This document shows, one piece after another, positions 28,630-43,234 of a stretch of DNA of 43,234 nucleotides. The DNA comes from Streptosporangiaceae bacterium (GTDB taxonomy: Bacteria > Actinomycetota > Actinomycetes > Streptosporangiales > Streptosporangiaceae), in the NCBI GenBank assembly GCA_025934635.1, contig JAICWX010000034.1, positions 1 through 43,234 on the forward strand. The letters run 5' to 3'. The position numbers and the translations under genes are program-made. Every line of letters starts with the position of its first letter. Within the stretch, counting starts at the first letter, position 1. The notes below the pieces were generated by a model. That model did not search any database. It was given only the letters and a program-made list of their open reading frames with translations, and was not told where the DNA came from.

Positions 28630-29276
28630 CAGCGGGGTCCGGTGGCGGGCTGGGCGGGCACGCTGCCGCACAAGACGTCGAGAACCACGCCGAGGGAACC
28701 GTCGATCACGTGCGCGCAGTCGAGGAAAGCCTCCGGATCCGCGGCCGGATCGGCGATTTCGTCGGCCGCGGGGTCGACGTACGGGACCCGGCCGCGGATC
28801 CGGGCGGCCGCCGTGACGGTACTGCGGGCCTGCCCCCCGGTATCGCGCGCGGTGGCCGGCGAGATAGCGGCCGCCAGCCTGGCGAACTCGCGCAGCAGGT
28901 AGGTCCGCCTCGACGCGCCGGGCCGCATGACCAGGACCCCGTCCCGGTGGGCCAGGTCGGCGGACAGGATCAGGTCGGCTTCGTCGATATCGCCGGCCGT
29001 TAGCTGGCGGCTGCGGAACCCGTCGGTGTCGGCACCGAGCCGGGACAGCGCCTGCATCGTGTAAGGGTGCATCGGCGAGCCGCACCGGCTCGCTGTGCCC
29101 GCGCTCGTGACGCGGAACCGGCCCGCCTCGCCGCCGAGGCGGGCCCGGATCCCGCGACGGGCCAGTCGCTCGGCGATCACCGACCGGCACACGTTCCCCG
29201 TACACACGAACAAGATCCGGAAATACCCCGCCTGGTTGTCGTCATCACGAGGCCAGCCGCCGTGCTGGTCAGGCAC
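28626..29276 (-). CDS. Low-molecular-weight protein-tyrosine phosphatase
   Basis: This 216-residue phosphatase would remove phosphate from tyrosines of the adjacent BY-kinase, as Wzb does for Wzc. The active-site P-loop is C25-TGNVC-R31 followed by S (ILFVCTGNVCRSVIAE). The later VPYVDPAADEIADPAADPEAF stretch supplies the general-acid Asp region. SAGTASRCGSPMHP is also typical. It is longer than the usual length of about 150 because of an N-terminal extension and an insert around residues 125-160. GTG 29276 overlaps the end of the kinase gene by 8 bp, and the stop overlaps the fusion gene start. The three are thus a translationally coupled operon. Confidence 0.88.
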   Translation of the reverse strand: MPDQHGGWPRDDDNQAGYFRILFVCTGNVCRSVIAERLARRGIRARLGGEAGRFRVTSAGTASRCGSPMHPYTMQALSRLGADTDGFRSRQLTAGDIDEADLILSADLAHRDGVLVMRPGASRRTYLLREFARLAAAISPATARDTGGQARSTVTAAARIRGRVPYVDPAADEIADPAADPEAFLDCAHVIDGSLGVVLDVLCGSVPAQPATGPRW

Positions 29277-30696
29277 GGGCTGGTTCCCCGGGCTGGTCTT
29301 CCGCCGCCGTGGCGTCCGCGGGCGGTGGCGGGCCGTCCGCTCCGGGCCGGTAGTACCGGTACCCGTAGCCGTACTCCGGATGGCTCGCGCGCGGTGCCAT
29401 GGTGAGCAGGCTGCCGAGGAGCGGCACGTCGACGGCCTTGAGCGCTTCGAAGGAGCGCCGGACGTGCTCGATCCGCGTCCGGCCGTGCCGGACCATCATG
29501 ATGGCGCCGTCGCAGTAGGGCGCGATGCTGGCGGCGTCGGCGAACGGCAGCAGCGGCGGCGCGTCGACGAGCACCACGTCGTACCGGTCCCTGAGCCGGC
29601 CGATCAGCTGCCTGGCCTGCTGGGAGGCGAGCAGGTCACCGGGATTGGGCGGCAGCGAGCCGCTGGCCAGCACGGAGAACAGGTCGTCACCCCAGACCTG
29701 GGTCGCCTCGTCCTCTGTGCACCGGCCGAGCAGCACGTCGGTCACCCCGATCGTCCCCGGCAGCCCGAGGTAGCCGACGGCGCGCGGGCGGCGCAGGTCC
29801 GCCTCGACCAAGATGACCCGGCTGCCGGACTGAGCCAGCATGAGCGCCAGGTTGCACGCGCTCGAGCTCTTGCCCTCCTCGGGCAGGGCGCTGGTGAACA
29901 GCAGCACCTTGCGCGGCTGGTCGATGTCGACGAACTGCAGGTTGGCGCGCACCTTCCGGAAGGCCTCGACCCGCGGGCTGAACGGATCCTCGTCCGCCAC
30001 CAGCGGCCGCTGCCGCGCCGACGAGTCGAACGGGATCGTGCCGAGCACCGGCTTGCCGGTCTGCGCGGCCAGTTCGTCCGCCGACTTGATCCTGTTGTCC
30101 AGCGAGCGCACGGCCGCCGCGAGCGCGAGGCCGGCCAGCAGCCCGAGCGCGAGCGCTACGGCCACGTTCCTGATCGGATCCGGTGACACCGGCCGGGTCG
30201 GAAGCTCCGGCACGGCCACCACCTCCACGCTGACCGGCGGCGTGCCGCCCTCCGGCGGCGTCTCCAGGGTGGCGACGAGCGCGGTGAACTGCGTGCCGAT
30301 GCTCTGGGCGATCTGCCACGCCCGCCGCGGCGACGGATCGGTGACCGTCGCGCTCAGCAGCACCGTCTGCGGAACGGGACGGGTGCTGATCTCGGCCGCG
30401 ATGGTGCCCGGCGACGCTTTCAGGCCGAGGTCCCCGATGACGGCCCGCACGAGCATCGGGCCGCGCAGCAATTCGGTGAAGGACTGGACCACCTGCTGCG
30501 AGAGCAGGTCACCCTGGTAGGCGCTGACGGGATCGCTGGTGTTGGCCTGGGCCGATACGTAGAAGGTGACGCTCGACGCGTACAACGGCGTCGTCCGTGC
30601 GGTAAGCGCCGCGCTCGCCCCGGCCGCGACTGCCGCCACGACCACGATCAGCTTCCACTGGTCCCGCAGCAGACGGATGAAGTTACGCAGATTCAC
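29269..30696 (-). CDS. Wzz/BY-kinase: polysaccharide chain-length regulator and tyrosine autokinase
   Basis: This membrane protein of about 475 residues controls polysaccharide assembly. Two transmembrane helices (about 18-31 and 178-196) flank an extracellular Wzz-like domain (YASSVTFYVSAQ near the start, PTRPVSPDP before TM2). The cytoplasmic part is a bacterial tyrosine kinase with Walker A LPEEGKSS (K276), Walker A' VILVEADLRRP (about 295-304) and Walker B VVLVDAPPLLPF. The tail has a tyrosine cluster EYGYGYRYY (about 441-449), the usual autophosphorylation site. GTG 30696 is preferred over 30735 because a GAGGGGG lies about 11 bases upstream and the Wzz start NLRNFIRLLRDQW follows at once. 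The Wzz and kinase parts are in one chain, as in Wzc, not split as in CpsC/CpsD. Confidence 0.9.
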   Translation of the reverse strand: MNLRNFIRLLRDQWKLIVVVAAVAAGASAALTARTTPLYASSVTFYVSAQANTSDPVSAYQGDLLSQQVVQSFTELLRGPMLVRAVIGDLGLKASPGTIAAEISTRPVPQTVLLSATVTDPSPRRAWQIAQSIGTQFTALVATLETPPEGGTPPVSVEVVAVPELPTRPVSPDPIRNVAVALALGLLAGLALAAAVRSLDNRIKSADELAAQTGKPVLGTIPFDSSARQRPLVADEDPFSPRVEAFRKVRANLQFVDIDQPRKVLLFTSALPEEGKSSSACNLALMLAQSGSRVILVEADLRRPRAVGYLGLPGTIGVTDVLLGRCTEDEATQVWGDDLFSVLASGSLPPNPGDLLASQQARQLIGRLRDRYDVVLVDAPPLLPFADAASIAPYCDGAIMMVRHGRTRIEHVRRSFEALKAVDVPLLGSLLTMAPRASHPEYGYGYRYYRPGADGPPPPADATAAEDQPGEPARA

Positions 30697-30826
30697 GGCG
30701 AGCTTGCCCCCTCGGTCCCCGGCACGTCGCACCAATTACTCGGAGTGTTTACAATACAACTCTCAGTAGGGTAATCAAGTTCCTGAGGTCGTCATTCGGT
30801 GGTCGGGATAGCGGGGGCAGTCGATC
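30697..30826. promoter_or_regulatory. Divergent promoter region of the glycan locus (left)
   Basis: This relatively AT-rich 130-bp gap separates the BY-kinase operon (minus) and the pglF operon (plus). It holds TACAAT (30750-30755), a plausible -10 on the plus strand, without a clear -35. AACTCTCAGTA at 30758-30768 recurs with one mismatch in the second divergent gap of the locus (39910-39920). Confidence 0.5.
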
Positions 30827-32742
<1,916 letters not shown>

Positions 32743-32746
<4 letters not shown>

Positions 32747-34524
32747 TCACCCAAGGACGCCGCGGCGGCCGGCCGGACGGAGGCGGCCGCGGTCAGGATG
32801 CGGTTGCCCCGCTCCGGCCCTACCGCGGCAAGCGGCTGCTTGACCTGGCGATCCTCTGCCTGGCCGCCCCGGCGGCCGCGCTGGCCGGCCTGCTCGCCGC
32901 GGCGGCCATCTGGCTCGACGACGGGGGGCCCGTCCTGTTCCGCCAGGTACGCGCCGGGCGTGACGGCCGGCCGTTCGTCATGCTGAAGCTGCGGACGATG
33001 CACCGCGACCGCGACGAGCGGGCCGTTTTCCCCGAGCGTGCGGACTGCACCCGCGTCGGCCGGTGGCTGCGACGGCTGTCCGTCGACGAACTCCCGCAGC
33101 TGGTCAACGTGGCGCGGGGCGAGATGAGCGTGGTCGGCCCGCGGCCGGCGCTGCTCTACCAGGTCCGGCGGTATGACGAGCGGCAGCGGCGCAGGCTCGC
33201 CGTGCCGCCGGGGCTGACCGGCCTGGCTCAGGTGCACGGCCGCAACCAGCTGAGCTGGGCCGACCGCATCGAATGGGACCTGCGCTACGTCGAGAGCCAG
33301 AACCTCAGGCTGGACCTCGCCGTACTGGCCGGCACCGCGCGGACGGTTCTGACCGGCGACGGATGTAACGGGCACCCGCACGACGATCCGATCGCCACCC
33401 GACGGAAAGGTGACAATGACATGCCCGAAGTGACACCTCGGATTCGCCTGGCGAAGCCAGATGTGGGTGAAGCGGAGATCGGCGCCATCCGGGAGGTGTT
33501 CGCGAGCGGAATTTTCACCAACGGCTCGCAAAATGCGGATTTCGAACGTGAATTTGCCGTCCGGCATCGTTGTGCGCACGCGGTCAGCTTCTCCAGCGGG
33601 ACCACCGCCCTGGCCGCGATGCTGCTGGCCGAGGGCATCGGCCCGGGGGACGAGGTGATAGTCCCGTCGATGACCTTCATCGCGACCGCGACCTCCGTGC
33701 TGCACGTGGGCGCCACGCCGGTATTCGCCGACATCGACCCGCGGTCGTTCAATCTCGACCCGGACGAGATACCCCGGCTCGTCACCCGCCGGACCCGTGC
33801 GGTCATCGCCGTCCACTACGCCGGCCAGCCCGGCGAGCTCGACCGCCTGCTCAAGGTGTGCCTGGAGTACGGGCTGCTGTTGTTCGAGGACGCCGCCCAG
33901 GCCGCGGGCGCCGAGTTCCGGGGCGCGCCCGTAGGCGACTTCGGGAAATCGGCGATGTTCAGCTTCACGCCGACCAAGAACATCACTACGGGCGAGGGCG
34001 GGATCGTGGTCACCGACGACGCGGCGACCGCCGACCGGCTGCGCCTGCTGCGCAACCACGGGCAGCGGCAGCTGTACCAGCACGAGCTCGTCGGCTACAA
34101 CTGGCGCCTCACCGAGATGCAGGCCGCCATGGGACGGGTCCAGCTGCGCAAGCTCGACGCCATCCTGGCTCGCAAGAGAGCCAGCGCCGCGTGGATGGAT
34201 GACCGGCTGGCCGCCCTGCCCGGCGTCACGCCGCCCTACGTGCCGCCGTACGTCACGCCCACCTACATGCTCTACACCTGCCTGGTCGAAGAGAACCGGG
34301 ACGCCGTGCTCGACTACCTCACCGGGCGGGGCATCGAGGCGCGTATCTACTTCCCGCCTGTCCACCTCCAGCCGGTCTTCACCGGCCACCGGTGCCGCCT
34401 GCCGGTCACTGAGGATGTAGCCGGGCGGTTGATCTCGATCCCCATGCACGCACAGCTCACCCGGACCGAACTCGGCGAGATCGCGGACGCGGTGGAAACC
34501 GCCGTGCACATGGCCAGCCGGTGA
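32743..34524 (+). CDS. Fusion of PglC-type phosphoglycosyl transferase and PglE-like aminotransferase
   Basis: This single 593-residue frame has no internal stop. Residues about 25-205 are a monotopic phosphoglycosyl transferase: re-entrant membrane helix (about 31-57), KLRTMHRD, the catalytic pair D115-E116 in LSVDELPQLVNVARGEMSVVGPRP, and PGLTGLAQVHGRN. It should load a sugar phosphate on undecaprenyl phosphate. Residues about 230-593 are a DegT aminotransferase with D383 (FEDAAQAAGA) and PLP lysine K412 (TPTKNITTGEGG). An internal ATG at 33421 (M227) is preceded by GGAAAGGTGAC and could also yield the aminotransferase alone. Fusion to a PglC-like domain and coupling to pglF suggest the aminotransferase acts as PglE in bacillosamine synthesis (inference). 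Confidence 0.86.
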
Positions 34525-35654
34525 CCGCCCTCCGGGCCGGCGTGATCGGCCTCGGCACAATGGGACGGCATCACCTCCGGGTACTGCGCGAGCTGTCGGG
34601 CGTGGAGGTCGTCGGCGCCGCCGATCCGTCCCCGGCCGCCCGGTCCGCGGTGTCCCTGGAGACGGTCACCGCCGACGTCGATGAACTGCTCGCCCTCGGG
34701 CTCGATCTCTGCGTGGTCGCCGCTCCGACCCTGGCCCACGCGGAGATCGGGCTCCGGCTCGCGGCGGCGGGGGTCCCTGCCCTGATCGAGAAACCCCTAG
34801 CCGCCGACTCGGCGGACGCCTTCCGGCTGGCCGCGGAGTTCGAGGCGCGGGGCCTGGTCGGGTGCGTCGGGCACGTGGAGCGGTACAACGTGGCCCTGCT
34901 CGCCATGCGCTATCACCTCGCCCGGGGCGATCTCGGCCCGGTCTTCCAGGTCGCGACCCGCCGGCAGGGCCCGTTTTCCGGGCGGATCCGCGATGTCGGC
35001 GTGGTCATGGACCTGGCTACCCATGACATCGACCTCACCTGCTGGGTGACCGGCTCCACGTACCGCCGGGTGACCGCCTTCACGGCCTGCCCGGGCGGCA
35101 GGCCGTACGAGGATCTGGTGACGGTCAGCGGGGAGCTGTCCGGCGGCGCCGTCGCCAGCCACCTGGTGAACTGGCTCTCGCCGGTGAAGGACCGGGTGGT
35201 GACGGTGACCGGCGCTCATGGCTGCCTGACGGCCGACGCCCTGGCCGGGGAGCTGCGGCTGTACCGCCACCGCGCGGACGCCTGCGCCGGGCCGCCGGGA
35301 CCGCCGGGACCGCCGCCGCGTGACGCGGCGGACGGCGACGTCGTCCAGTACGTCATGCCCAGGCGCGAGCCGCTCCGGGCCGAGCTGGAGAACTTCCGCG
35401 ATGCCGTCGCCGGCCGGCCCGCCAGCATCATCACGATGCGGCAAGGGGCCGCCGCTGTGGCGGTGGCCGAGGCGGTGATCATGTCGGCCCGCGACGGCAT
35501 CGCCGTCGCGCCCCGTGTCGCCCTGGCCGGGCTCCCGCCGGGGCACCCGTCCGCCGTCCCGGCTCAGCTGGACGCCGGCGGTCACGGCGCGCTTGGCCGG
35601 CCGGCCGTTGTCTCCGGCCGGCCGCTGGCGGGCTATCCCGGCGTGCCCGGATGA
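34521..35654 (+). CDS. Gfo/Idh/MocA oxidoreductase, likely UDP-GlcNAc(A) 3-dehydrogenase
   Basis: This NAD-dependent dehydrogenase of 377 residues has a Rossmann start VIGLGTMGRHHLRVL, the signature E90-K91-P92 and the catalytic block GRIRDVGVVMDLATHDIDL with D164, H168 and D169. The RxGPFxxRIRDVGVVxDLATHDID block resembles the GnnA/WbpB-like 3-dehydrogenases that oxidise C3 of UDP-GlcNAc or UDP-GlcNAcA before transamination. A Pro/Gly-rich loop (GPPGPPGPPP) and a C-terminal tail of about 40 residues are extra. GTG 34521 overlaps the preceding stop (GTGA). Neighbouring 6-dehydrogenase, aminotransferase and acetyltransferase genes support the 3-amino sugar assignment. Confidence 0.83.
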   Translation: MTALRAGVIGLGTMGRHHLRVLRELSGVEVVGAADPSPAARSAVSLETVTADVDELLALGLDLCVVAAPTLAHAEIGLRLAAAGVPALIEKPLAADSADAFRLAAEFEARGLVGCVGHVERYNVALLAMRYHLARGDLGPVFQVATRRQGPFSGRIRDVGVVMDLATHDIDLTCWVTGSTYRRVTAFTACPGGRPYEDLVTVSGELSGGAVASHLVNWLSPVKDRVVTVTGAHGCLTADALAGELRLYRHRADACAGPPGPPGPPPRDAADGDVVQYVMPRREPLRAELENFRDAVAGRPASIITMRQGAAAVAVAEAVIMSARDGIAVAPRVALAGLPPGHPSAVPAQLDAGGHGALGRPAVVSGRPLAGYPGVPG

Positions 35655-37036
35655 CCCCGGACGTGGCCGTGGTCGGGCTCGGCAAGATGGGCCTGCCGCT
35701 CGCGGTCCAGATCGCGGGGAAAGGGTTCCGGGTCCGCGGCGCCGACCGCAGCGAGCGGGTGGCGGCCCTGGTATCTGGCGGCCGTGCGCCGTTCCCCGGC
35801 GAGCCCGGCCTGGCCAGCCGGCTGCGCGACGTCACCGGGTCCGGGCGGCTCACCGCGACGACGGACACGGCCGGCGCGGTGGCGGCCAGCGACGTGGTCG
35901 TCGTGCTGGTGCCGCTGGTCACCGACAGCGCCGGGCGGCCGGATTTCTCGGCCGTCGACGACGCCACCGCCGCGGTCGCGGCCGGCCTGCGGCCGGGCGC
36001 GCTGGTCAGCTACGAGACCACGCTGCCGGTGCATACAACCCGGCGGCGGCTGGCTCCGGCCCTGGCGGCCGGCTCAGGCCTGCTGCCCGGGCGGGATTTC
36101 GCGCTCTGCCACAGCCCGGAGCGCGTGTCGAGCGGGCGGGTCTTCGCCGACCTGCGGAGGTACCCGAAGCTGGTCGGCGGCATCGACCGTCCCAGCGGCG
36201 AGCGGGCGGGGGAGTTCTACCGGTCGGTCCTCGACTTCGACGAGCGGCCCGATCTTCCCCGGCCGAACGGGGTGTGGGATCTGGGCAGCCCCGAGGCGAC
36301 GGAGCTCGCCAAGCTGGCCGAGACCACCTACCGGGACGTGAACATCGCGCTGGCCAACGAGTTCGCCCGGTTCGCGGGCACCGCGGGAATCGACGTCTTC
36401 GAGGTGATCGAGGCGGCCAACAGCCAGCCGTACAGCCATATCCACCGGCCGGGCATCTCGGTCGGCGGGCACTGCATTCCCGTCTACCCGTGGCTCTACC
36501 TGGCGGGCGACCCGGACGCCCGGCTGCCCGCCGTGGCCAGGCAGGTGAACACGGAGGTCCCGGCGGCGGCGGTCCGGCTGCTCGGCGAGCTGGTCGGCGG
36601 CCTCGGCGGGCTGCGGGTGGCCATCCTGGGCGCCGCCTACCGGGCCGGCGTCAAGGAGACCGCGTTCTCCGGGGTCTTCGCGACCGCGGCCGAGATCTCG
36701 CGGTGCCAGGCGGTGCCCGCCGTCCACGACCCGCTGTACGCCGACCGGGAACTGAGCCGGCTCGGCCTCGTGCCGTACCGGCTCGGCCAGCCGTGCGACG
36801 CGGCCATCGTGCACACCGATCATCCGGCCTACGCGGCGCTGGCGCCGTCCGACCTGCCCGGGGTGCGGGCGCTGGTGGACGGGCGGGCGATCACCGACCC
36901 CCGGCTATGGACCGGTGTCCCGCGCCGCGTGCTCGGCGTCGGGGCGGCGGAGCAGCCGGGCGGGCACGCCCGCCACCACGACGCCGGGCGGCTGGTCGCG
37001 GGTAACGACCGCACCCGCTCCGACCATGGCGGATGA
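35651..37036 (+). CDS. UDP-N-acetylhexosamine 6-dehydrogenase (WbpA/WecC family)
   Basis: This nucleotide-sugar dehydrogenase of 461 residues oxidises the C6 hydroxyl of UDP-GlcNAc or UDP-ManNAc to a uronate in two NAD steps. It has the N-terminal Rossmann VAVVGLGKMGLPLA, LCHSPERVSSGR, the central helix ETTYRDVNIALANEFARF and the catalytic C275 in ISVGGHCIPVYPW. The C-terminal domain contains LGAAYRAGVKET. The last 40 or so residues (GAAEQPGGHARHHDAGR...) are not family-like and run over the end of the opposite-strand acyltransferase for 132 bp. ATG 35651 overlaps the previous stop. It is the last gene of the pglF operon. Confidence 0.88.
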   Translation: MTPDVAVVGLGKMGLPLAVQIAGKGFRVRGADRSERVAALVSGGRAPFPGEPGLASRLRDVTGSGRLTATTDTAGAVAASDVVVVLVPLVTDSAGRPDFSAVDDATAAVAAGLRPGALVSYETTLPVHTTRRRLAPALAAGSGLLPGRDFALCHSPERVSSGRVFADLRRYPKLVGGIDRPSGERAGEFYRSVLDFDERPDLPRPNGVWDLGSPEATELAKLAETTYRDVNIALANEFARFAGTAGIDVFEVIEAANSQPYSHIHRPGISVGGHCIPVYPWLYLAGDPDARLPAVARQVNTEVPAAAVRLLGELVGGLGGLRVAILGAAYRAGVKETAFSGVFATAAEISRCQAVPAVHDPLYADRELSRLGLVPYRLGQPCDAAIVHTDHPAYAALAPSDLPGVRALVDGRAITDPRLWTGVPRRVLGVGAAEQPGGHARHHDAGRLVAGNDRTRSDHGG

Positions 37037-37546
37037 CCCGATCCGCAGGCCTGGCAGCACGCACGCGTTGGAGCCCATCGTCACCTCGGCGCCGAGGACC
37101 ACCGCGCCGGCCACGTTCGCCCCGGGCAGCACGGTGACGAAATCGCCGAGCACGGCGTCGTGCCCGATGGTCGCGTTGTAGTTCACGTGGACGTGCGTGC
37201 CGAGCGTGGTGCCGGTGGAGACGAACGCGTTCGCGAGCACGATGCAGCCCTCGCCGAGGGCGGCGCCCGGCGATAGGGCCGCCCTCGGGTGGAGCACCCG
37301 GCCAGCGGTCAGGCCGCGCGCCCGGAGCAGGGCCGCTAGCCGTCGGCGGGCGCCGGGATGGGCGATCGCGACCACGAAGGTACCCGGCCCGGCTTCGCCC
37401 GGGCGCCGCACCGGGACCCCGTCCACCACGGCCCGGCCCGGAGCGTCGTCGAGGAACTCGACATCGCCCGGGGCGCCGGGCGACGCGCGCAGCGCGTCCA
37501 GGGTTTCCCGGCCGAACCCGCCCGCGCCGGCGATGTAGAACGTCAT
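36905..37546 (-). CDS. NeuD/PglD-family sugar O/N-acyltransferase
   Basis: This 213-residue protein has an N-terminal nucleotide-sugar-binding Rossmann-like part (FYIAGAGGFGRETLDAL) and a C-terminal left-handed beta-helix. The helix includes VHVNYNATIGHDAVLGDFVTVLPGANVAG, carrying the catalytic His candidate in IGHD. GAGAVVTRDQPPGVVVAGVPARLL ends the fold. PglD in the bacillosamine pathway belongs to this family, so N-acetylation of the 4-amino sugar is the natural assignment here; NeuD-type O-acetylation is the alternative. ATG 37546 overlaps the GT4 stop (ATGA). It is the third gene of a minus-strand operon, and its end overlaps the convergent 6-dehydrogenase gene by 132 bp. Confidence 0.85.
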   Translation of the reverse strand: MTFYIAGAGGFGRETLDALRASPGAPGDVEFLDDAPGRAVVDGVPVRRPGEAGPGTFVVAIAHPGARRRLAALLRARGLTAGRVLHPRAALSPGAALGEGCIVLANAFVSTGTTLGTHVHVNYNATIGHDAVLGDFVTVLPGANVAGAVVLGAEVTMGSNACVLPGLRIGSSAMVGAGAVVTRDQPPGVVVAGVPARLLRRPDAEHAARDTGP

Positions 37547-38790
37547 TTCACCGCCTCGGTGAGCGCTCGCAGGAACTGCTCCGCGAGGGTGGTCATGTCG
37601 TGGTGCCGGTACACCCAGCTCCTGCCCTGCTCGCCGAGGGCGTGACGTCCCGCCTGGCCGGCCGCGGCCAGGCGGACGAGCGCGTCGGCGATCGCCGCCG
37701 GCGCCCCGGGCGGGACGCAGATCCCGCCCCCGGAGGCGCGCACCGGGCTGTCGGCCAGGGCGCAGGTGCAGATGACCGGCCGGCCGCTCGCCAGGTAGTC
37801 GAAGAGCTTGTTGGAACTGAGCCCGTACCGGAACACCGGCACGTCCCGCAGCGGGAAGAGCGTCACCTCGAGCGCCTCGAGCACGCCGGGTACCGCGTGC
37901 TTGGGCACGGGCGGGGCGAACAGGATGTTCCGCAGGCCGTGGCGGCGGGCCAGCTGCTCGCAGCGTTCCTTGTCCGGGCCGTCCCCGACCAGCACCAGCA
38001 CGATGTCGCCGATGCCGCGGTCGCGCAGCTCCGCCGCGGCTTCCACCAGGACCTCGATGCCGTTGGCGTGCCCGTGCGACCCGACATAGCCGGCCACCAG
38101 GCAGCCCGCCTCGCGCCACCGCCTGATCCGGTCGACCAGCGCGGCCGCCTGCCCGTCCGGCGGGACGGGAACCGCGGTTCGCCCGGCTATCCCGTTCGGT
38201 ATGTAGATGATCTTGCTCGGCGGGACGCCGGCCGCGGTGAGGTACCTGGCCGCTCCCGGCAGCAGGGTGATCACCAGCCGGGCGCGGCGGTAGAGGAAGC
38301 GCTCCAGGGCGCGCAGGGCCCGGGCGGCCGCGCCGCCGTCGCGCAGTGCCCCCATGTCGATCAGCGTCTGCGGCCACAGGTCCCGCACCTCGAAGACGAA
38401 CGGGGTGCGGCGGATGGCGCCGATCAGGCAGGCGGCGGCGACCGCCAGCGGATGCACGCAGGAGCCGATGATCACGTCGGGCCGGGGCATGGTCCGCTGC
38501 GCCCGGACCGCGCCGGCCGCGTAGCTCACCATGTTCCGCACCCGCCGGTGGTCGTTGCGTGTATAGGCAGTGGTGCGGATCCAGGCGAACCGGACTCCGT
38601 CGATGATCTCGACGCGCATCCGCTCGCCGGGGGCCAGCCGCTCCTCCGCCCGGCTGAAATGGCTGAAGCTGCTCGCGAAGACGGTGACCTCGTGTCCCCG
38701 TCCGGCGAGCAGCCGGCCGAGCTCGTAGTGACGGGTGCCGGCCGGGCGGTCCGGCGGGGACGCGTAGTGGTTGAGGATCCAGATCCTCAT
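37543..38790 (-). CDS. GT4-family glycosyltransferase (WbuB-like)
   Basis: This 415-residue GT-B glycosyltransferase probably adds an amino sugar to the lipid-linked glycan on the cytoplasmic face. The N-terminal domain starts RIWILNHYASPPDRPAGTRHYEL, a WbuB/CapJ-type opening. FVFEVRDLWPQTLIDMGAL follows. The C-terminal domain has IIYIPNGI, VAGYVGSHGHANGIEVLV and the EX7E-like region SSNKLFDYLASGRPVI. Start ATG 38790 overlaps the epimerase stop. Its donor is not readable from sequence; the operon suggests a 2-acetamido sugar such as ManNAc3NAcA. Confidence 0.88.
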   Translation of the reverse strand: MRIWILNHYASPPDRPAGTRHYELGRLLAGRGHEVTVFASSFSHFSRAEERLAPGERMRVEIIDGVRFAWIRTTAYTRNDHRRVRNMVSYAAGAVRAQRTMPRPDVIIGSCVHPLAVAAACLIGAIRRTPFVFEVRDLWPQTLIDMGALRDGGAAARALRALERFLYRRARLVITLLPGAARYLTAAGVPPSKIIYIPNGIAGRTAVPVPPDGQAAALVDRIRRWREAGCLVAGYVGSHGHANGIEVLVEAAAELRDRGIGDIVLVLVGDGPDKERCEQLARRHGLRNILFAPPVPKHAVPGVLEALEVTLFPLRDVPVFRYGLSSNKLFDYLASGRPVICTCALADSPVRASGGGICVPPGAPAAIADALVRLAAAGQAGRHALGEQGRSWVYRHHDMTTLAEQFLRALTEAVK

Positions 38791-39890
38791 CCCGGCGATC
38801 CCTCCGCGGCCGTCCGGGCCCGCGCCCGGGCCGCGAGCTCGGCGACGACGCGGCCGGCCGCGCCGGGCTCCCCGTAGGGCGACGGGGGAACCCCGCGCGG
38901 CCGGAGCCTGGACACCGCGGTGCCGAGGTCACGGAGGTCGGGAACCAGGACGTTCCAGCCGTCTTGCAGGGTCTCAGGCCATTCGGTCCGGTCGCGCAGC
39001 GTCGTGCACGGGACGCCGAGCAGGAGGGCTTCCTTCTGCAGCCCGCCGGAGTCGGTGACGACGCCGGCGGAGCCGAGCACGGCCGCGACCATGTGCGGAT
39101 ACGGCAGCGGCCCGGACGCCTGGAGCGCCCCGGCCGACAGCGGCAGGCCGAACCGGGCGGCCCGTTCGGTGAGCCGGGGGTGGGCGATCAGCCGGACCGG
39201 CAGCGGGCACCGGCGCAGCGCGTCGAGGATGGCGGCGAGCCGGCCGGGATCGTCGGTGCTCTCCGCGCGGTGCACGGTGGCCAGCAGGTACAGTCCGGCG
39301 GCGGCGAAGGCCGGCTGGCGGCGGTCCCGGGCCCGCGGGTCCGCGTCGATCCGGGCCCGGATGGCCGCGAGCGTGTCGACCATGACGTCACCGGTGAGCA
39401 CGGTGCGCGGGCCGAGACCCTCGGCCGCCAGGTTCGTCACCGCCACCGGGGTCGGCGCGAGCAGCAGGTCCGCCGCGTGATCGGCCAGGACGCGGTTGCG
39501 TTCCTCCGGCATCCGCCGGTCGAAGGACCGCAGTCCGGCTTCCAGGTGCGCGAGGGGCAGGCGGTGCTGGGTGGCCGCGAGCGCGCCGCCCAGCGTGGTG
39601 CTGGTATCCCCGTACACCAGCACCCAGTCCGGCTGCCGCTCCGCCAGCACCGGGTCAAGCCCGGCCATGATGCCCGCCACCTGCCTCGCCGCGCTGCACG
39701 AGCCGACTCCGAGATTGACGGCGGGCGGCCCGATGCCGAGATCGTCGAAGAACACCTGCGACAGCAGCCGGTCGTAGTGCTGACCGGTGTGCACGATCAC
39801 GTGCTCGTGCCCGTGCCCGCGCAGCGCCTGGTCCACGGGTGCCAGCTTGACGAACTGCGGCCGTGCGCCCACGACGCTCAGTACCCGCAC
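38787..39890 (-). CDS. Non-hydrolysing UDP-GlcNAc-type 2-epimerase (WecB/WbpI family)
   Basis: This 367-residue epimerase inverts C2 of UDP-GlcNAc or of its 3-acetamido uronate (as WbpI does). Motifs are VVGARPQFVKLAPV at the start, HTGQHYDRLLSQVFFDDLGI, VYGDTSTTLGGALAA, HLEAGLRSFDRRMPEERNRVLADHAAD and TDSGGLQKEALLLGVPCTTLR. GTG 39890 has a GGAGGGG ribosome site, and TACAAT (39910-39905, minus strand) is a possible -10. As first gene of a three-gene operon with a GT4 and an acyltransferase, it probably supplies UDP-ManNAc3NAcA, though plain UDP-ManNAc is equally consistent with the sequence. Confidence 0.9.
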   Translation of the reverse strand: MRVLSVVGARPQFVKLAPVDQALRGHGHEHVIVHTGQHYDRLLSQVFFDDLGIGPPAVNLGVGSCSAARQVAGIMAGLDPVLAERQPDWVLVYGDTSTTLGGALAATQHRLPLAHLEAGLRSFDRRMPEERNRVLADHAADLLLAPTPVAVTNLAAEGLGPRTVLTGDVMVDTLAAIRARIDADPRARDRRQPAFAAAGLYLLATVHRAESTDDPGRLAAILDALRRCPLPVRLIAHPRLTERAARFGLPLSAGALQASGPLPYPHMVAAVLGSAGVVTDSGGLQKEALLLGVPCTTLRDRTEWPETLQDGWNVLVPDLRDLGTAVSRLRPRGVPPSPYGEPGAAGRVVAELAARARARTAAEGSPG

Positions 39891-39989
39891 AGGGGCCCCT
39901 CCAGATTGTAACTTTCAGTATTGATGATATTACTAAGGGTATTCAGTCTTAACCTAGGGACCAGGTGTCCCGCTAGTAACTGTGAGGCG
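39891..39989. promoter_or_regulatory. Divergent promoter region of the glycan locus (right)
   Basis: This AT-rich 99-bp gap separates the epimerase operon (minus) from the flippase-polymerase operon (plus). It includes TACAAT on the minus strand (39910-39905) and AACTTTCAGTA (39910-39920), close to AACTCTCAGTA in the gap at 30697-30826. The long frame through this gap from 39921 is unlikely to be translated given its composition. Confidence 0.5.
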
Positions 39990-42677
39990 GTGGCTTTGCT
40001 CACCTCTCCCAGGCATCCCGCCGCCCACCGGCGGCCTTCGCGTGTGTCAGGACTGCGCCTGCGCGTACGCGCGTCGCTCCCGGGGATCAGCCCGGTGATG
40101 GTCGGCGGCACTCTGGGGACCCGCGTGGTCGCATCGATTCTGAGTTTCGGCGCCGGGATCATCACCGCACGCGGGCTCGAGCCGCACGGGAGGGCCATGC
40201 TCGCGCTGATGACGGCGGTGCCAGCCCTCTTCGGCGTCATTGGCGTGTTCGGCCTCGACAACGCCAACGCCCGCTTCGCCGGGCTGTCGCACTCCGCGTT
40301 CCGCCAGCTGGTTCGCTGGGCTGTGGTGTTCTCCGCCACCGGGGGAACGGCGCTGGCCGCGGCGTGGTGGTTCGCTGGCGTCCGCTGGCCGGCGCTGCTA
40401 CTCAGCCTCAGCCCGCGGCTGGCGCTGCTCAGTGCCGCGTTGTGCCCGGTCAGTTTGCTGATAACGCTGCTCGGCGCGGCCGAGATCGGGCGCGGGCGGG
40501 TCGGGGTGTACAACTTCGCGACGGCCGCCACCACGGTCGCCTACCTGGCTGGCGTGCTCATCTTGGTGGCGGTCGGGCGCGTCACGGTGGCCGGCTGCTT
40601 CGCGGCCTGCGCGGCGGGCCAGGTACTCGGGGCGGTGCTGCTGCTGGCGCTGGCGGCCGTCCGGGTGCACCCGGACGGCGACCGCGTGCACCCGCGCCGG
40701 TACGTCAGCTACGCGCTGCGCGCCTACCTGCCCAACCTCGGGCACTACAGCATGCTGCGCATGGACGTGCCCGTCATCCAGGTGCTGTCAGGAACCACCG
40801 CCGTCGCCCTGTACGCGGTAGCGCTTCCGCTCGCCGAGTCCCTGCTGCTGCTTCCGATGGCGGTGGCGCTCGTCATATTCCCGCGGGTGACGTCCGGTGC
40901 CGTGGACCAGGTGGCAGCCGGCAGGATCGGGCGGACCGTGGTAGTCGTCACCGTCGCCCTCGCCGCGGTGGTCGGGCTAATCGTCCCCATGCTCATCCCC
41001 CTCCTCTATGGCGCCCCGTATCGCGGCTCGGTGGCCGTGGTCTGGTGCATGCTTCCCGGGATGGTGTTCTTCAGCGCCAGTCGGACGCGGCAGGCGTACT
41101 TCGCGGCGACAGACCGGATGAGGCCAGCCATCGTGGCCACCGCCACCGGAGCGGCTGTCGGGCTGGCTTGCCTGGCGGCGCTGACGGCCCGGTACGGAGC
41201 GATAGGGGCGGCGCTGGCCGACTCGGCCGGCTACCTGGCCTTCACCCTCGTCCTCGTGAGCGGCCAGGTCAGGGCCGGCCCGCTGGCGGGGGCCGTCACC
41301 GGCTCGCTGCGGCGCGGATGGCGGCGCGCTCTGCAGGCGCAGAGCGCGGCGGCCAGAGCGATCCGGCCGATCGCGACGGGCTGCGCCGCGGTGACGGCCG
41401 GGCTGGGCATCGCGGTGCTGGCCGGCCGCGGCCTGGCGTACCTGCTCACCGCGGCGGCCGTGATGAGCCTGCTGATCACGGTGGCCGTGCCGGCTAGCGG
41501 GCTCTACCTGCTCGCCGTGGCGGTGCCCGTATCGCAGACATCCTTCGGGGCCTCCCTGATATCGAGCAGGGACCTGGTGATACTGATCGTCGCCTGCCTG
41601 GTGGGCCACGCCGCCGCCGGCCGCCTCGTCCGCCGGAGTTACGCGCTGGCGGCACTGGCGGTCTCGGTTGTCGGCTACTTCCTGCTGTCGTCCATCCTGG
41701 CTGACGGAAGCGGCAGCGGGAACTGGCGCTATGTGCTCATGCTGGGATTGCCGCTGCTGTGCCTGCCGCTGATCGCCGACGCGGACGAAACCATCCGGCG
41801 TGCCCTGGTCGTGCTCGCCTTCGCGGCGGCCTGCGTCGCGGTAGCCGAGATCCTTCAGTCGCATGCGTCCCTGGCCGCGGCCGGGGACGTCTCCGCGGTG
41901 CAGAGCGCCATCGTCGCGGCGGACCAGACGGGCGCGGTGAACCACAACAGCGAGGGCGCGCTGTTCGTCCTCGCCCTGGGCGTGCTGCTGGCCAGGTTGT
42001 CACGAACCGGCGGTCGCGCCGCCCGGGTCGCCCTGATCATCGCCATCGTGATCCTCACGGTCGGCGTGGCCTACTCGTTCAGCCGGGCCGCCTACTTCGG
42101 GACGCTCACGATGATCGTGGTCTATGCGGTCCGCCGGTCCGTCCGCGGCCTGGCCGGCGCGGCGGTCTGCCTGGGCGGTCTGCTGCCGCTGCTGCCCGCG
42201 GCGGTGACCGCGCGGCTCGGGACGGTCTGGAGCTCGAGCGGCCTGGACGCTGACTCGGCGGTCAGGCTGGATCTGTGGTCGAGTGCGATCAGGATGTTCG
42301 ACGCCCATCCGGTCTTCGGCGTCGGCTACCTGAACTTCGCAGGCCAGCTTCCCGCTTATTTCCAGCCTACGGGCCACTACGACAGCTTCCTGGTCCAGCT
42401 TTCCCTGCTCGACTTCGCCCACAACACGTTCCTGTCCGTGCTGGCCGAGACCGGGATCATCGGCGTCGTGCTGGTCGGGGCGCTGGGCGTCACGGGGTGG
42501 CGCACGGCCTGGCGGGCCTGGCGGGCCGCCGACTGGGTCGGCGAGGGCGCGGTGCTCGTGTTCATCGGCGTCGGGGTGTGTTCCGTATTCGGCGAGGTGC
42601 TGCTCGTCCCGGCGATCTTCATCGGGTTCCTGTTCGTCGTCCTGGCCGCTGGCGGCACCCGGGCGGAGGGCCGATGA
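39990..42677 (+). CDS. Fusion of Wzx-like flippase and Wzy/O-antigen-ligase-like polymerase
   Basis: This uninterrupted frame encodes about 895 residues with some 20 or more membrane helices. The first half (to about residue 440) is a polysaccharide flippase of the MOP superfamily: GGTLGTRVVASILSFGAGIITARGLEPHGRAMLALM, then paired helices, LRMDVPVIQVLSG and LYGAPYRGSVAVVWCMLPGM. After a basic linker (LRRGWRRALQAQSAAARAIRP) the second half matches Wzy/WaaL proteins: many helices, NHNSEGALFVLALG, FSRAAYFGT, and the ligase-type block AHPVFGVGYLNF with FAHNTFLSVLAETGIIG. It would flip lipid-linked repeat units and polymerise them outside. Start GTG 39990 is a best guess (GTG 40050 and ATG 40098 possible). 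The stop overlaps the next GT4 start. Confidence 0.82.
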   Translation: MALLTSPRHPAAHRRPSRVSGLRLRVRASLPGISPVMVGGTLGTRVVASILSFGAGIITARGLEPHGRAMLALMTAVPALFGVIGVFGLDNANARFAGLSHSAFRQLVRWAVVFSATGGTALAAAWWFAGVRWPALLLSLSPRLALLSAALCPVSLLITLLGAAEIGRGRVGVYNFATAATTVAYLAGVLILVAVGRVTVAGCFAACAAGQVLGAVLLLALAAVRVHPDGDRVHPRRYVSYALRAYLPNLGHYSMLRMDVPVIQVLSGTTAVALYAVALPLAESLLLLPMAVALVIFPRVTSGAVDQVAAGRIGRTVVVVTVALAAVVGLIVPMLIPLLYGAPYRGSVAVVWCMLPGMVFFSASRTRQAYFAATDRMRPAIVATATGAAVGLACLAALTARYGAIGAALADSAGYLAFTLVLVSGQVRAGPLAGAVTGSLRRGWRRALQAQSAAARAIRPIATGCAAVTAGLGIAVLAGRGLAYLLTAAAVMSLLITVAVPASGLYLLAVAVPVSQTSFGASLISSRDLVILIVACLVGHAAAGRLVRRSYALAALAVSVVGYFLLSSILADGSGSGNWRYVLMLGLPLLCLPLIADADETIRRALVVLAFAAACVAVAEILQSHASLAAAGDVSAVQSAIVAADQTGAVNHNSEGALFVLALGVLLARLSRTGGRAARVALIIAIVILTVGVAYSFSRAAYFGTLTMIVVYAVRRSVRGLAGAAVCLGGLLPLLPAAVTARLGTVWSSSGLDADSAVRLDLWSSAIRMFDAHPVFGVGYLNFAGQLPAYFQPTGHYDSFLVQLSLLDFAHNTFLSVLAETGIIGVVLVGALGVTGWRTAWRAWRAADWVGEGAVLVFIGVGVCSVFGEVLLVPAIFIGFLFVVLAAGGTRAEGR

Positions 42678-43234
42678 TCCGGTCAGGCCGCCGGCCGGGT
42701 CCAGCCGGGCCGGATGATGCGCCGCTGCGGATCTTGCAGGTGGCCGCGACCGCGGTCGGCGGTACCTGGTTTCTTGACCAGGTGACCGGCTTGGCCAGGC
42801 GGGGCCATGAGGTGCGGGCGGTGCTCCCCGCGGACGGCCCGCTGGCGCATGGGCTGCGGGCGGCGGGCGTCCCGGTGGAGATCATCCCGTTCGGGCTATC
42901 CCGCCGGATCCGCCAGCTGCCGTCGCTGGCGGCCGCCGAGTGGCGGCTGCTCCGCCTGGTCCGGGACTTCCGGCCGGATGTGATCCACGCCCACCTGCTG
43001 ATCGGGACCCTGGCGTGCCGGCTGGCCTCGGCTGGCTACCGGCCGGCGCTGCGAGTGACACAGGCGCCCGGGATGCCCCGGTTGCATATTCCCGCGCTGC
43101 GCTGGCTGGACCGGTGGACGCTGCGGCGTGACGACATGGTGATCGGCTCCTGCCAGGCCATCGCTGACCGGTACCGCGCCATGGGCGCCCGGTCGGTGGC
43201 GGTCAGCTACTACGGCTGCGACGTGCACGCGATC
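42674..43234 (+). CDS. GT4-family glycosyltransferase, 3' end outside window
   Basis: This is the N-terminal 187 residues of a GT-B glycosyltransferase cut by the right edge. Visible are the first Rossmann strand LRILQVAATAVGGTWFLDQVTGLARRGHEVRAVLP, the region DFRPDVIHAHLLIGTLACRLAS, and VIGSCQAIADRYRAMGA leading to the inter-domain hinge. ATG 42674 shares ATGA with the stop of the Wzx-Wzy fusion, so it is translationally coupled. The donor sugar is unknown. The glycan locus evidently continues beyond the window. Confidence 0.88.
   Translation, partial: MIRSGRRPGPAGPDDAPLRILQVAATAVGGTWFLDQVTGLARRGHEVRAVLPADGPLAHGLRAAGVPVEIIPFGLSRRIRQLPSLAAAEWRLLRLVRDFRPDVIHAHLLIGTLACRLASAGYRPALRVTQAPGMPRLHIPALRWLDRWTLRRDDMVIGSCQAIADRYRAMGARSVAVSYYGCDVHAI

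Follow-up and report, generated by a model that had tools for sequence, protein, structure and literature searches.

A conserved fusion of a Wzx-type flippase and a Wzy_C-domain protein in an actinobacterial polysaccharide cluster

Can a single polypeptide hold both the flippase and the polymerase of a Wzx/Wzy-type polysaccharide pathway, and if so, what would the joining accomplish? The question was raised by one gene near the end of contig JAICWX010000034.1 of a Streptosporangiaceae bacterium. The whole stretch analyzed, 43,234 nucleotides long, is called the window here. The gene encodes a MOP-type flippase fold followed by a Wzy_C domain. Our analysis indicated that this flippase-polymerase fusion is real and conserved, and that it is a variant within the known pathway. 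Its features are as follows, with residues counted from position 39990.

39996..42677, + strand: Wzx-Wzy fusion gene, with TTG as the favored start and GTG 39990 as an alternative
39984..39990, + strand: Shine-Dalgarno-like GAGGCGG, read directly
40095..41288, + strand: MOP flippase domain (residues 36-433)
41271..41429, + strand: variable linker rich in arginine (residues 428-480), expected on the cytoplasmic side, with a predicted local distance difference test score (pLDDT) below 50
41481..42665, + strand: Wzy_C/WaaL-like polymerase domain (residues 498-892)
42084..42086, + strand: R699, aligned with Arg191 of the WaaL chain 7tpg_B
42264..42266, + strand: R759, aligned with Arg265 of 7tpg_B
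42420..42422, + strand: H811, aligned with His313 of 7tpg_B

An earlier sequence-only reading of this DNA had claimed that the frame runs without a stop from a flippase into a polymerase/ligase-like domain. The open reading frame analysis confirmed this, with one uninterrupted frame from 39921 to 42677 (+). The GC content at third codon positions remained coding-like in the linker-region DNA (0.88-0.96) and was maintained across the joint. Seven in-frame start codons lie at 41240-41500, and none of them was judged by eye to have a good Shine-Dalgarno sequence upstream. At the 5' end, TTG 39996, six bases inside GTG 39990, is the likely start, because GAGGCGG sits five bases upstream of it and the LLTS motif is also the N-terminus of the homologues P0005 and P0011. 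At the other end, the stop of the fusion gene overlaps the start of the next glycosyltransferase gene in an ATGA (42674-42677). The whole fusion protein matched nothing above an NCBIfam cut-off.

The N half displayed the MOP fold throughout residues 36-433, and WzxE was the top match. The matched WzxE lipid III flippase structures (9g9n, 9g9p and 9g95) share about 15% identity with it, and MurJ and MATE structures scored almost equally. Profiles were required for these matches; a single-protein search of the PDB with the N half returned none. Pfam and NCBIfam matches of the neighboring genes placed the flippase half within a polysaccharide cluster. We infer that the N half is a Wzx flippase that would move a polyprenyl-linked unit. 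One study (PMC3412221) reportedly concerns a Pseudomonas Wzx flippase.

Residues 460-895 had been read as an O-antigen polymerase/ligase-like domain, and the C half proved to have a WaaL-like fold and to match PF04932 (Wzy_C) at 67.1 bits, against a gathering score of 31.7. Its closest solved structures were WaaL (7tpg, named polymerase/ligase) and the oligosaccharyltransferase 9rmk. Here too profiles were required, and the single-protein PDB search gave five weak unrelated matches only (best E 0.047). R699, R759 and H811 were kept in at least 98% of the 117 alignment rows, and we take these counterparts of WaaL Arg191, Arg265 and His313 to be catalytic residues. A search of the open-access literature for the WaaL residues returned no paper. 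WaaL is a protein of a Gram-negative bacterium with lipid A. The same matches would suit a flippase-ligase fusion, in which the C half attaches completed glycan to an acceptor (cell wall, lipid or protein) while another gene of the genome encodes the polymerase. Wzy_C spans ligases and polymerases, and the two nearest structures fit such a role. We consider this alternative improbable; the evidence against it lies in the cluster described below.

Between the halves, the linker is predicted to lie on the cytoplasmic side. Within residues 421-483, a span slightly wider than the linker, lysine plus arginine exceeded aspartate plus glutamate in 117 of 117 rows. In the alignment of fused homologues, both the flippase and the polymerase halves were better conserved than the linker.

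The fusion was found to be widespread among relatives. A homologue search with the fusion protein scored 7,999 candidates and found 127, and the best 120 of these 127 were taken. Together with searches using the N half and the C half (31 proteins each), this gave 177 proteins (clusters), which sorted into 116 fused, 22 N-half, 24 C-half and 13 partial proteins, with 2 lacking a match. The fused class (116/177), in which more than 60% of both halves lay in one chain, had lengths of 783-1027. It included P0001, 100% identical to the window protein, and the lowest identity among the fused proteins listed was 46%. Named hosts were Streptomyces, Kitasatospora and Streptacidiphilus, and Streptosporangiaceae-type names appeared on two C-half matches and one N-half match, none of them fused. 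The full-length frame was also present in at least five of 200 genomes from the family of Streptacidiphilus pinicola, at least one of 296 from its class and at least one of 147 from its order; these are lower bounds, as at most four, three and six candidates per genome were scored for the family, class and order, respectively. The class and order positives were both G001, the seed genome, which is also among the five family positives. One profile scan of genome contigs yielded one locus. The presence of the same fusion in related genomes, which the sequence-only reading had proposed to check, was thus established in the 116 fused clusters and the five family genomes. A sequencing artefact or a lost stop confined to one genome is accordingly extremely unlikely. 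Since the fusion is conserved, neither a lost stop nor a frameshift can account for the family, and the 116 clusters and five genomes rule out an assembly error as well.

The product is probably one polytopic protein, with a Wzx N half and a Wzy C half joined by a flexible, positively charged cytoplasmic linker, that serves its polysaccharide cluster. Several findings weigh against this reading. The N half of the fusion protein itself scored 18.9 bits with PF13440, below the cut-off of 23 bits, and in the precomputed Pfam table PF13440 or PF01943 was present in only 6 of the 116 fused homologues. In G031, which has the fusion at L023, Wzy_C and flippase genes lie adjacent in different frames at a second locus (L024), which argues against the fusion as the sole flippase-polymerase of that cell. 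This second Wzy_C protein would also fit the ligase alternative. Finally, a deliberate search found the halves split in at least one clade (eight proteins). The flippase identity of the N half rests on structure and profile, and a Pfam cut-off is a detection threshold, which defines no biological feature. The assignment of residues 1-440 to a MOP-type flippase was therefore upheld by fold and profile, though PF13440 remained sub-threshold.

The split proteins deserve closer description. The separate flippases P0121, P0123, P0125 and P0126 (405-437 residues) shared a common end just past the last membrane segment, and the separate Wzy_C proteins P0161, P0163, P0164 and P0167 (470-485 residues) each had a start of their own. 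The length of the longest contig was the same for P0126 and P0163 (14,217) and likewise for P0134 and P0160 (20,369), which suggests that these halves are adjacent. The sequence-only reading had named two-gene orthologues beforehand as a refutation, and this was found in part. Both halves matched their families and the fusion was conserved, whereas at least one clade does have separate proteins. In a quick tree of the N half, which drew 49 of its 60 rows from the 117 fused sequences, 7 from chosen single-half sequences and 4 from outgroup sequences on very long branches, the four split flippases fell into one clade (support 100), beside fused sequences (94) and in a mainly fused group (93). 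In a quick tree of the C half (61 rows), effectively unrooted since its outgroup was broken up, the four split Wzy_C proteins also grouped together (100). A single fusion followed by one secondary splitting is favored, if not proven, because the split flippases nest inside the fused family in the N-half tree. P0122, P0130, P0132, P0134, P0137 and P0156 looked truncated or frame-changed by eye and were excluded from the splits; in the tree columns, the N half of P0130 was identical to that of the fused P0082. Other single-half proteins, P0129, P0152, P0157 and P0159 among them, could represent either additional genuine splits or predictions that are incomplete.

Two further arrangements were reached through flippase matches with long frames. 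If the window type is called A, type B occurred in one genome (G047), where L022 5391-9818 (+) is a single frame with Wzy_C (PF04932, 35.1 bits) first and a flippase (PF13440, 40.3 bits) second. The first conserved Wzy_C arginine was not evident in the alignment of L022. Type B is less certain than types A and C because it was seen in one genome and has a low-complexity, Gly/Pro-rich linker with a weak codon-position signal. In relatives (L024, L028, L009 and L036), Wzy_C and flippase genes adjoin in different frames. Type C, found in six genomes (L058-L063, 68-84% identical to the first), carried a PF14296 polymerase and then a flippase in one frame of 1,051-1,096 codons in five of them. In L060 (2676-6995, +), the polymerase-flippase frame runs stop-free into a methyltransferase and reaches 1,440 codons. 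The type C flippase part matched no Pfam flippase model at the three of six loci scanned and was homologous to the window N half (hhalign 99.0, E 4.4e-18), while its polymerase part had no detectable similarity to the window C half. An AlphaFold model of the type C fusion was unusable (pLDDT 38). The type C pair was split in L067 (83-85% identity) and L064 (39-40% identity); L066, where the contig stops, was uninformative on the polymerase. L067 lacks the long linker of the fused L061 and is therefore not just a frameshift of the fused form. A single origin for all three arrangements is unlikely because gene order and polymerase family differ, and independent origins would be expected.

What surrounds the fusion gene bears on the role of its C half. 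The neighboring features were as follows.

42674..43234, + strand: downstream glycosyltransferase (Pfam on 42806-43234), overlapping the fusion gene in the ATGA and truncated where the window ends
38787..39890, - strand: divergent neighbor, UDP-GlcNAc 2-epimerase of the wecB family (PF02350; TIGR00236 above cut-off)
37543..38790, - strand: WcaI-like glycosyltransferase (NCBIfam model below cut-off)
36905..37546, - strand: hexapeptide sugar acetyltransferase of NeuD/PglD type (TIGR03570 above cut-off)
35651..37036, + strand: nucleotide-sugar dehydrogenase (TIGR03026 above cut-off)
34521..35654, + strand: Gfo/Idh/MocA oxidoreductase (best NCBIfam model UDP-GlcNAc 3-dehydrogenase, below cut-off)
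32743..34524, + strand: priming sugar-phosphate transferase, then in-frame DegT aminotransferase (PF02397, PF01041)
30827..32746, + strand: nucleotide-sugar dehydratase/epimerase (PF02719)
29269..30735, - strand: chain-length regulator with tyrosine autokinase (TIGR01007 above cut-off, TIGR01006 below)

The cluster thus brings together the parts of a Wzx/Wzy pathway, from the priming transferase and glycosyltransferases to the flippase, the polymerase and the chain-length regulator. Judged by eye from where the called genes begin, L001, L023, L025, L026 and L027 have a comparable gene order. The choice of polymerase over ligase for the C half is drawn from this cluster content, the one basis for it, as Wzy_C spans both. 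Among the called genes of the window and the loci of these five relatives (18-23 kb stretches), a simple hydrophobicity count found no other protein with at least six hydrophobic segments, and there was no second candidate polymerase, with the proviso that the gene calling was a home-made GC heuristic that may miss genes. A polymerase gene unlinked to the cluster may exist in the genome of the window. The chain-length regulator/kinase in the window likewise argues against a ligase. By their look, the oxidoreductase, dehydrogenase, aminotransferase, acetyltransferase and 2-epimerase at 32743-39890 form a route to a diacetamido-uronic acid sugar nucleotide, and resemble the UDP-ManNAc3NAcA (Wbp pathway) set. 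Within 32743-34524, few residues separate the end of the priming transferase from an internal ATG with an upstream AAGGTGA site. The priming transferase and DegT aminotransferase are separate overlapping genes in L001, L025, L027 and L023. In the window, the single frame means either that these two genes are fused as well or that this genome lacks a stop here.

On the reading of one Wzx-Wzy protein, the priming transferase and glycosyltransferases would assemble the repeat unit on a polyprenyl carrier, and the N half would flip it. The C half would then link the units outside the membrane under the control of the chain-length regulator/kinase, both halves being active members of one assembly line. 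The fusion would hold flipping and polymerization close at a 1:1 ratio, and the lipid-linked unit might be handed directly from the flippase to the polymerase half. Coupling of export to polymerization is a plausible hypothesis. Tentatively, Actinobacteria could have joined the two proteins on three or more occasions (Wzx to Wzy_C, Wzy_C to Wzx, and PF14296 to Wzx) because flipping and polymerization are one coupled step, in which, inside a complex of fixed 1:1 stoichiometry, the lipid-linked unit leaves the flippase and moves straight into the acceptor site of the polymerase; we regard this as possible but rather doubtful. If true, the fusion would make visible a contact between Wzx and Wzy that is non-covalent elsewhere. 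A serious rival, which concerns the benefit of the fusion and not its existence, is that GC-rich neighbor genes occasionally lose the stop between them and that the fused product works without functional coupling. The methyltransferase extension in L060, the occurrence of both split and fused type C forms at 83-85% identity, the clade that carries the window-type halves apart, and the two other window cluster genes in one frame (32743-34524) all fit this explanation. In contrast, the type A fusion has been maintained over 116 clusters with both halves conserved above the linker, and flippase-polymerase frames exist in three arrangements. Neutral joining is a real possibility, short of being probable.

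The relevant part of the review PMC5748678 cites genetic evidence for interaction of Wzx, Wzy and the polysaccharide co-polymerase (PCP), and has the co-polymerase proposed as the bridge between flippase and polymerase; the co-purification it cites is that of Wzy with Wzz. Judged from that part of the source, the Wzx-Wzy contact looks unsettled. That natural fusions occur in both gene orders and with polymerases of two unrelated families is Rosetta-Stone evidence for closeness. The fusion also offers structural work a protein of fixed 1:1 stoichiometry, with the natural split versions as controls, and its occurrence in many relatives opens a direct route to asking whether flipping and polymerization are physically coupled. 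No description of a natural Wzx-Wzy fusion was found among the titles and abstract openings listed by searches of the open-access literature, and one may exist elsewhere.

Among known systems, many homologues carry the two-part JGI label 'O-antigen/teichoic acid export membrane protein/O-antigen ligase', an annotation string with no described system behind the name. Flippases associated with VanZ-type lipocone domains have a lipid-head-group enzyme domain as partner, not a Wzy polymerase. WzxE is a stand-alone protein about 15% identical to the flippase here, which is fused to a polymerase half. WaaL (7tpg) shares its fold and the Arg/Arg/His residues with the C half, but it stands alone, whereas the C half is fused to a flippase and lies in a polysaccharide cluster. 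The cluster matches the Wzx/Wzy/PCP pathway in its set of parts; flippase and polymerase are usually, though not obligatorily, separate in that pathway, while here they form one polypeptide.
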